Source: Gemmatimonadaceae bacterium (GTDB taxonomy: Bacteria > Gemmatimonadota > Gemmatimonadetes > Gemmatimonadales > Gemmatimonadaceae). Taken from it: 5,769 bases of DNA. The stretch covers positions 1 through 5,769 of the forward strand of contig JANWKK010000250.1 in the NCBI GenBank assembly GCA_025451425.1, read 5' to 3'. Made by a program: the position numbers and the translations under genes. Of this stretch, positions 939 to 5,377 are shown piece after piece (position 1 is the stretch's first letter; every line of letters begins with the position of its first letter). The notes beneath the pieces were generated by a model. That model had not been told where the DNA came from. It saw only the letters and a program-made list of their open reading frames with translations, and ran no database searches.

Positions 939-963
939 CATTGCCATTCGTCGTTAGGCAATG
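939..963 (+). promoter_or_regulatory. Start-codon-sequestering hairpin before the GNAT gene
   Basis: CATTGCC (939-945) and GGCAATG (957-963) are perfect 7-base inverted repeats with an 11-base loop. The right arm contains the ATG (961-963) of the acetyltransferase gene, so folding of the mRNA would hide the initiation codon. The upstream lipoprotein gene ends at 930, so the structure fills the 30-base gap. No good Shine-Dalgarno is visible for the downstream gene. Translational control or coupling is inference; chance is possible. Confidence 0.4.
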
Positions 964-1533
964 ACAGTACCGGAGCAGCTGCGGACGTCGCGTCTGCTGC
1001 TCCGGCGGTGGCGCCCGATGGACGCTACCGAGCTCGCGCCCATTCTCGAGGCGAACGTCGCGCACCTCACGCGCTGGATCCCGGCACGCGTCGCCATGCC
1101 CGCCCCAGTTCAGGCGCTCGTTGGGCGCCTCGAGAGCTACGCCGCGGCGTTCGACGCCGGCCGTGAATGGCGATATGCCATCGTTGCCAGCGTCGCTCCG
1201 CGTCTCCTGGGCGAAATGAGCCTCTTCCCGCGCAGCGAGACGGAACGCGTCACGTTCGACGCGGAAGACGCCGATCACATCGAGATTGGCTACTGGCTCC
1301 GGCAAGACGCGACTGGCCATGGGTTCGCCACCGAGGCAGCGCAGGCGGCAGTGGACCTGGCGCTCTCACTCCCGGGTATGTCAAGAGTCACCATTCACTG
1401 CGACGAGCAAAACGCTCCTAGCGCGGCGCTGCCCCGTCGCCTAGGGTTTGAGCACGTTGCAACGATCGAGCAGCCGGCTCACTCTGGCCTGCCGGCAGCT
1501 CGGCTCCAGATCTGGGAGTATACGCGTCCCTAA
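961..1533 (+). CDS. GNAT family N-acetyltransferase, RimJ/RimL-like
   Basis: The product is 190 residues. The N-terminus (Arg-Thr-x-Arg-Leu-Leu-Leu-Arg-Arg-Trp, 8-17) is the usual opening of RimJ/RimL-type acetyltransferases. Motif A, which binds acetyl-CoA, is at 108-130: Ile-Gly-Tyr-Trp-Leu, then Gln115-x-x-x-Gly119-x-Gly121-Phe-Ala-Thr-Glu-Ala. Motif B is at 144-163: Ile-His-Cys-Asp-x-x-Asn151-x-x-Ser154 and Leu-Gly-Phe. Family members transfer acetyl groups from acetyl-CoA to protein N-termini, amino sugars, antibiotics or other amines; the substrate cannot be read here. It lies 30 bases after the plug lipoprotein gene and 13 bases before the peroxidase, so co-transcription with the latter is likely. 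The ATG start is the only good candidate; a hairpin covers it and its Shine-Dalgarno is weak. Confidence 0.9.
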   Translation: MTVPEQLRTSRLLLRRWRPMDATELAPILEANVAHLTRWIPARVAMPAPVQALVGRLESYAAAFDAGREWRYAIVASVAPRLLGEMSLFPRSETERVTFDAEDADHIEIGYWLRQDATGHGFATEAAQAAVDLALSLPGMSRVTIHCDEQNAPSAALPRRLGFEHVATIEQPAHSGLPAARLQIWEYTRP

Positions 1534-1546
1534 CGAGTCGCCGCGC

Positions 1547-2164
1547 ATGCATCCGATGTTCTTGCCGGAGGTCGAGGCATTTCCGGCAGAGGGGAGTCGA
1601 AGGGAGATGATGGCGCGTCTTCGCGCCGCTGGTCTCCCCATTCCGCAGATTCAGCATCTCTTCGCGTTCAAGACGGATCGCACGGACCATCTGGCGCGCT
1701 TCACGCACGGCGTGATGCGCGGTCCGTCGCCGCTGTCGCCCGGACAACGCGAGCTCATTGCCGCGTTCACCTCGCGACGCAACGACTGTCCTTTCTGAAT
1801 TGGCTCTCACGCCGCGGTCGCGGCGGAGCTGTTGGGTGACAAAGACCTCGTTATGGCTGTCCTCGCGGACTATCGGACCGCGCCGATCTCCGAACCCGAG
1901 CGCGCGCTCTTTGCGTTGATCGCGAAAGTCGTCGAGGACTCGACGTCGATTACAGCAGCGGACCTCGAGTGCGCTCGCAAGGCGGGATGGACCGACGAGG
2001 CATTGTACGACGCGATCACCGTGTGCGCACTGTTCCAGTTTTATAACACCTGGATCGATGCGACGGGTGTGAGCGACATGTCGCCTGCGGGCTACGAGAT
2101 GTCGGGGAAGCGGCTGGCCGAGAAGGGTTATGCATATGCTGAAGAGGCGGTTGAGAGGGGCTAG
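1547..2164 (+). CDS. AhpD/carboxymuconolactone decarboxylase-type peroxidase, predicted selenoprotein (TGA 1796-1798 read as Sec84)
   Basis: Read through the TGA, the product is 205 residues. The first half (1-83) opens with Met-Phe-Leu-Pro-x-Val-Glu and carries Pro-Gln-Ile-x-His-Leu-Phe-Ala (33-40). The proton-relay Glu69 lies 12 residues before Cys81, as in AhpD. The active site reads Cys81-Pro-Phe-TGA-Ile-Gly-Ser-His88, matching the AhpD spacing Cys-x-x-Cys-x3-His, with TGA in place of the second Cys. The second half (85-205) continues in the same frame with family-typical helices, including Tyr-Arg-Thr-Ala-Pro-Ile-Ser-Glu and Asp-Ala-Ile-Thr-Val-Cys-Ala-Leu-Phe. A SECIS-like hairpin follows the TGA. 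The enzyme would reduce peroxides in the cytoplasm by thiol/selenol chemistry. It starts 13 bases after the GNAT gene; ATG 1556 is an alternative start and no clear Shine-Dalgarno is seen. A nonsense mutation or base-call error is the main alternative. Confidence 0.8.
1796..1829 (+). promoter_or_regulatory. In-frame Sec TGA with bacterial SECIS-like stem-loop
   Basis: After TGA (1796-1798) come 17 bases and then the apical loop GGTC (1816-1819). The loop closes a perfect six-pair stem: CGCCGC (1810-1815) with GCGGCG (1820-1825). Below it, GCTC (1803-1806) pairs with GAGC (1826-1829), leaving a three-base bulge TCA (1807-1809). Bacterial SECIS elements lie within the coding region just after the UGA. 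As I recall the published model, the loop begins about 16-37 bases downstream with a G in its first two positions. The E. coli fdhF element also has a GGUC tip about 18 bases after its UGA and a bulge on the 5' side. The stem sequence is also constrained by coding (His-Ala-Ala-Val-Ala-Ala), so chance pairing in GC-rich DNA cannot be excluded. Confidence 0.65.
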
Positions 2165-5279: not shown

Positions 5280-5280
5280 C

Positions 5281-5377
5281 GGGAGCTAGGGGCTAGGGAC
5301 TAGGGGCTAGAGCACTCCGATCTAGCCACTACCGCCTAGCCACTATCCCCTGGCCCCTAGCACTTATCGCCTACCAC
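5281..5377 (+). repeat. Heptamer array 2: inverted CTAG repeats forming a large hairpin, with a G-quadruplex motif
   Basis: Left arm units start at 5286, 5293, 5300 and 5307 (CTAGGGG, CTAGGGA, CTAGGGG, CTAGAGC). Right arm units start every seven bases from 5322 to 5371 (CTAGCCA, CTACCGC, CTAGCCA, CTATCCC, CTGGCCC, CTAGCAC, TTATCGC, CTACCAC). Bases 5286-5310 pair with 5336-5360 at 21 of 25 positions plus one wobble, leaving a 25-base loop. The plus strand also has four G-runs (5281-5283, 5289-5292, 5296-5298, 5303-5306) with loops of 5, 3 and 4 bases, a canonical quadruplex motif. The array begins two bases after the membrane-protein stop, so it probably ends or stabilises that transcript. Confidence 0.8.

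Follow-up and report, generated by a model that had tools for sequence, protein, structure and literature searches.

Does a TGA codon inside an AhpD-like gene of a Gemmatimonadaceae bacterium end translation, or is it decoded as selenocysteine (Sec)? We analysed a stretch of 5,769 nucleotides (the window), whose forward strand holds a reading frame at 1547..2164, with an ATG start at 1547 and a TAG stop at 2162-2164. Read through, the frame comprises 205 codons and contains one TGA only, at 1796-1798, which is codon 84 and is followed by 121 codons. An earlier note on this DNA had claimed these coordinates, a TGA in place of the second active-site Cys and the length of the downstream part, and all of them were verified. 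The predicted Sec lies in the motif C81-P-F-U84-I-G-S-H88. Together with Glu69, Cys81 and His88, which are present at the spacing that the note had described, it makes up an active site of the AhpD type (E-x11-C-x2-C-x3-H), and in an alignment residue 84 pairs with the second Cys of the CxxC motif of the solved relatives 2pfx and 3c1l. The read-through product matches PF02627 (6.7e-11, TGA read as Cys) and scores 92.6 bits against TIGR01926, ‘peroxidase-related enzyme’, for which the cut-off is 81.8, so that we assign it to the AhpD-like proteins of that family, with the CMD fold. Its match to NF041238 is weak, with 41.7 bits over residues 57-176 and below the cut-off of 175 bits. On the evidence of the sequence we conclude with high confidence that this locus, from a soil bacterium of the Gemmatimonadota type, encodes a single AhpD-like selenoenzyme, and insertion of Sec at codon 84 is very likely.

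The codon at position 84 was read as DNA in 34 distinct rows, which consist of the window and 33 relatives with at least 52% identity, namely every such match from searches of the family (179 genomes) and the phylum (395 genomes), plus the locus L022. TGA is found at codon 84 in the window and in 33/33 relatives, in line with the proposal of a single 205-residue selenoprotein; judged from the aligned sequences, such agreement at one codon in all 34 close rows is far beyond chance. The first relatives taken from genome contigs, all three with TGA at the site, were those of a Gemmatimonas MAG (L001, 87%), a member of the Gemmatimonadaceae (L002, 65%) and a Chloroflexi MAG (L003, 63%). L001 comes from the genome G001, and the search of its family gave matches at E <= 1e-3 in 67 of 179 genomes; 28 of the 179 have one of at least 52% identity (two of them partial) with TGA inside each; in the phylum search, 40 of 395 genomes match at E <= 1e-30. 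More distant rows (below 52%, fetched for part of such matches) comprise 26 with TGA and eight with Cys, and the TGA rows among them form at least two further groups by motif and hairpin, of the CVF-U-T..AH and CLF-U-TGAH types. In G001, TGA also stands at the second Cys of two more distant CMD-family genes (L025 and L027), where by eye the sequence downstream resembles other stem-loops. Double recoding was considered for rows with one TGA and one TAG and dropped, as L023, the one that was translated, has the TAG as an ordinary C-terminal stop.

If the TGA were a real stop, the locus would be a broken gene, or would give an 83-residue product and a separate downstream fragment. The neighbouring frame (469-930) does end with TGA, which therefore is not decoded as a residue throughout. 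Degraded sequence after the TGA in close relatives had been named in advance as evidence against a selenoprotein; instead, these relatives, whose alignments start at residue 1 or 2, are conserved beyond it. This conservation, the TGA at one codon in all close rows and a stem-loop that is either frozen or covarying leave the real stop with a negligible probability.

The stem-loop, a predicted bacterial SECIS element on the forward strand, occupies 1810..1825 in the fold of the window, with a stem of 1810-1815 paired with 1820-1825 and a GGUC loop at 1816-1819. Counted from the T of the TGA as base 1, the 6-bp stem starts at base 15 and the GGUC loop forms bases 21-24 in 58 of 58 TGA rows, the set obtained after removal of three duplicates and two distant rows. 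In all 58, the hairpin that follows the TGA carries a G in its apical loop, the feature by which SECIS elements are judged; six of six stem pairs are formed in 55 of them and five of six in the other three. The inner stem occurs in four versions (GCCGC/GCGGC, UCCGC/GCGGA, GGCGC/GCGUC and GCGGC/GCCGC), and the two-sided pair changes among TGA rows include changes to U-A and to G-U and a C-G pair swapped to G-C. The GGUC loop is found in none of the eight Cys rows, which have at most four of the six pairs, and which are a weak control because all of them are distant (25-41% identity). The codons within the gene provide a stronger control. Codons 89-92 (GCC GCG GTC GCG) are each represented by one codon in 32/32 close rows, whereas at the other 24 conserved A/V/G/P/T codons the commonest codon averages 0.62, with a maximum of 0.91 at codon 93, the bases of which also lie within the stem. 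Across all 66 conserved columns tested, the sole further codon that is fully frozen is I170, outside the hairpin. Folds of single sequences show no unusual stability (z -0.26 to -1.46). A lower stem beneath the hairpin, seen in the fold of the window, was dropped since L001, one of three relatives folded, lacks it, and the single Rfam match on the window, to a miRNA family (21.8 bits, gathering score 90), was taken as chance.

Sec insertion also requires a dedicated machinery, which we searched for in related genomes. Above curated cut-offs, selB is present in 104, selA in 105 and either in 113 of the 179 family genomes. Among the 28 genomes with an orthologue, 24 have selA, 26 have selB and all 28 have at least one, compared with 85 of the 151 genomes without an orthologue (one-sided Fisher p 6e-7, a value that is generous because the genomes are related to each other). 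With 98 candidates scored per genome, tRNA-Sec was above the cut-off in 24 of the 28; it was not found among these candidates in G082, G009, G002 and G008, each of which has selA or selB. At the same cut-offs, 14 control genomes gave two matches for selB, one for selA and three for tRNA-Sec, with E. coli included in each case. The genome of the nearest relative (G015, 92%) contains selA, selB and selC. TGA-bearing matches of about E 1e-11 or better occur in 47 genomes, a count that leaves out five genomes with weaker TGA matches and in which the TGA position is unchecked in many distant matches. Of these 47, 45 have selA or selB, and so has each of the five. The two exceptions are G014, which has tRNA-Sec, and G037, which has a distant TGA-bearing relative (33%) yet no match for selA, selB or selC.

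In two of the 28 orthologue genomes, G016 and G075, the gene adjoins selA and selB, and the same 12-kb stretches contain tRNA-Sec and selD; the stretch of G016 also holds a Sec-type AhpD paralogue. The gene and selA/selB are on separate contigs in the remaining 26, where linkage is possible as many contigs are draft. In the Chloroflexi phylum, a search at E <= 1e-40 found the gene in one of 400 genomes, G003 itself, in which selB was found and no tRNA-Sec above the cut-off, the best candidate being a tRNA-Leu; the gene in G003 may therefore reflect transfer or a binning error. Other candidate selenoproteins were seen along the way. The selD gene of G001 (L067 2400-2720) has its own in-frame TGA, at a C-A-G-U site, and is directly followed by tRNA-Sec. 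Matches to formate dehydrogenase alpha with one in-frame TGA occur in four of ten genomes searched (G035, G118, G160 and G025), all below the curated cut-off; those in G015, G001 and G075 are free of TGA, and none was obtained in G016.

Protein databases show how the locus is treated by standard annotation. As had been predicted, it can be split: P0083, P0088 and P0117-P0119 (112-115 residues, 79-91% identity) start past the site and lack it. We aligned 121 rows, the query (written with C) and the 120 matches listed of 830, in which residues 81 and 84 are C/C in 72 (query counted), C/W in 31, T/C in four (P0052, P0058, P0075 and P0115) and S/W in three (P0044, P0095 and P0116, possibly SxxU); the site is lacking in six. 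The expectation that Cys or Sec occupies position 84 in all homologues is borne out by the TGA of the window and its close relatives, and does not extend to five of the 121 rows listed, which have C81 with S, R, F or L at 84. Eight proteins of 323-336 residues (P0002-P0009) start just past a Sec-type site and run on into another AhpD domain, this one with CxxC. They resemble tandem fusions of a Sec and a Cys form in which the first half was truncated at a TGA. We infer that the W at residue 84 in 34 of the 120 matches listed is TGA translated with code 4. A FastTree tree gave at least nine Sec/Cys changes on the labels used, a count on which we do not rely because long branches were joined and 34 labels rest on this reading of W.

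The W shown at this position in some databases could also be taken at face value, with UGA decoded as Trp, or as Cys, by another UGA-reading tRNA instead of as Sec. A UGA-reading tRNA-Cys exists. Non-canonical bacterial tRNAs are also treated in the available text of a review (PMC7609411). However, W is what code 4 gives for TGA, and the W-bearing P0017 is 94% identical to the locus L039, whose DNA reads TGA. Furthermore, tRNA-Sec with a TCA anticodon is present in G001, G016 and G075, and a SECIS-like stem-loop would lack an evident role if UGA were read by such a tRNA. We consider decoding as Cys or Trp very improbable, and retain Sec as the residue at position 84.

The genomic neighbourhood adds little to the assignment of a function. 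A GNAT acetyltransferase gene (961..1533, forward strand; PF13302, 6e-24) ends 13 bases upstream of the selenoprotein gene, and the order TonB plug, GNAT, AhpD-Sec, TrmO and HAD is kept in G015; ExbD and the later genes of the window were not found in the stretch of G015 examined. This kinship with G015 makes it very probable that the window belongs to the Gemmatimonadaceae. We rejected the idea that the GNAT and selenoprotein genes form a conserved operon, as the two are adjacent in G015 but no GNAT gene was found in the 8.7 kb read around the selenoprotein gene in G001. A scan of ten proteins of the window gave no match to the AhpC family, so that the location beside ahpC that characterises classical AhpD is not seen here, and the window yielded neither an AhpC nor a reductase partner. 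The frame at 469-930 encodes a 153-residue protein that consists of little beyond a TonB plug domain; it bears a SusC/RagA signature and lacks a barrel. Short CTAG-rich repeats are visible by eye between genes at 300-340 and 5280-5370.

The AlphaFold2 model of the protein, with Cys replacing Sec, has a mean pLDDT of 93.9. In a structure search with this model the nearest fold was 6k40, an alkyl hydroperoxide reductase of D. radiodurans. By analogy with AhpD, we expect Sec84 to attack the peroxide and Cys81 to act as the resolving residue, with Glu69 and His88 as parts of a proton relay; the alignment does not settle the roles of 81 and 84, since loss of either position occurs. We propose that SelD and SelA would make Sec-tRNA(Sec), and that SelB would bind the GGUC stem-loop and insert Sec at codon 84. 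The Sec84 selenolate, tuned by Glu69 and His88, would then attack the peroxide, Cys81 would resolve the selenenic acid to form a selenenylsulfide, and a cellular thiol donor would reduce the latter.

By this analogy the enzyme probably acts as a peroxidase. Alternatively, Sec may be inserted into an enzyme that is mainly involved in thiol-disulfide chemistry or reductive dehalogenation, or into an adaptor that reduces a partner. The fold search does reach the debrominase Bmp8 (6ohj_A, E 5.8e-3), the name of TIGR01926 goes no further than ‘peroxidase-related enzyme’, and no neighbouring gene fixes a substrate. Yet the best structural matches are 6k40 and the antioxidant defense protein 3c1l, and E69, C81, the thiol or Sec at position 84 and H88 are all present and arranged as in AhpD, which makes a role other than that of a peroxidase rather unlikely.

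The locus gives a common soil phylum a place on the selenoprotein map, a phylum in which the gene is split or mistranslated by standard annotation. Being frozen and covarying, the hairpin offers a clean signature for locating more such genes, and the genes that adjoin selA and selB are a natural system in which to test the benefit of selenium to soil bacteria. We speculate, tentatively, that in Gemmatimonadota AhpD-type selenoenzymes are among the main clients of the Sec trait, and that AhpD-Sec with selA, selB, selC and selD is a compact cassette in the lineage of G016 and G075, which may move as a self-sufficient selenoperoxidase module.

Among known systems, M. tuberculosis AhpD (1gu9, 1knc) has the E-x11-C-x2-C-x3-H spacing in common with the protein described here. 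Its fold matches weakly (1gu9_L, E 0.44, TM-score 0.34), and it belongs to a different branch of the CMD superfamily. The CxxC site of classical AhpD, with its spacing of Glu and His, is recognisable here with Sec replacing the second Cys. The solved proteins 6k40, 2pfx, 3c1l, 2prr and 2oyo are relatives in sequence and fold; in 2pfx and 3c1l, where the Cys pair could be aligned, Cys is found where the window has Sec84. The alkylhydroperoxidase-related (seleno)proteins of NF041238, of the CFYUT type, likewise have Sec in an AhpD-type domain, and the score of the present protein is far below the cut-off of that model.

The closest system is the published family of AhpD-like selenoproteins (TIGR01926/COG2128), which is alike in the NCBIfam model matched above its cut-off, in the CxxU position and in the stem-loop after the TGA, as far as the available texts describe it. 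The earlier note had suggested that the CxxU arrangement in this subfamily and its occurrence in this lineage may both be undescribed. The former does not hold, as Table 1 of PMC13188914, in its available part, has the entry ‘AhpD-like protein, TIGR01926, CxxU’, and such proteins were already reported in 2005, with 27 AhpD-like CXXU sequences from the Sargasso Sea in the accessible text of PMC1088965. The latter stands within the literature searched, which did not extend to most subscription papers: it contained no report of an AhpD-like selenoprotein from Gemmatimonadota. Neither PMC13188914 nor PMC9312934 has the word stem ‘gemmatimonad’ in its main text, and in the available text of PMC3281104, PMC4807772 and PMC8318568 the name occurs in other contexts. 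AhpD-like CxxU proteins, including ‘AhpD-like 1’, are also described from GOS aquatic samples in the available part of PMC2398784, and the accessible text of PMC1794560 lists two AhpD-like (COG2128) selenoproteins in sequenced genomes, one of them that of Alkaliphilus metalliredigenes. The GOS ‘AhpD-like 2’ (pfam02627, PMC2398784), likened here by its description alone, also combines the CMD domain with CxxU and is reported to be commoner in nonmarine samples. In contrast to the Sargasso Sea, GOS and two-genome occurrences given in these texts, the gene belongs here to a Gemmatimonadota clade of soil type, in which the GGUC hairpin is very conserved, and in two genomes the gene lies within a sel cluster. 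Useful additions to this known family are its spread across Gemmatimonadota, the paralogues with Sec and the sel cassette.
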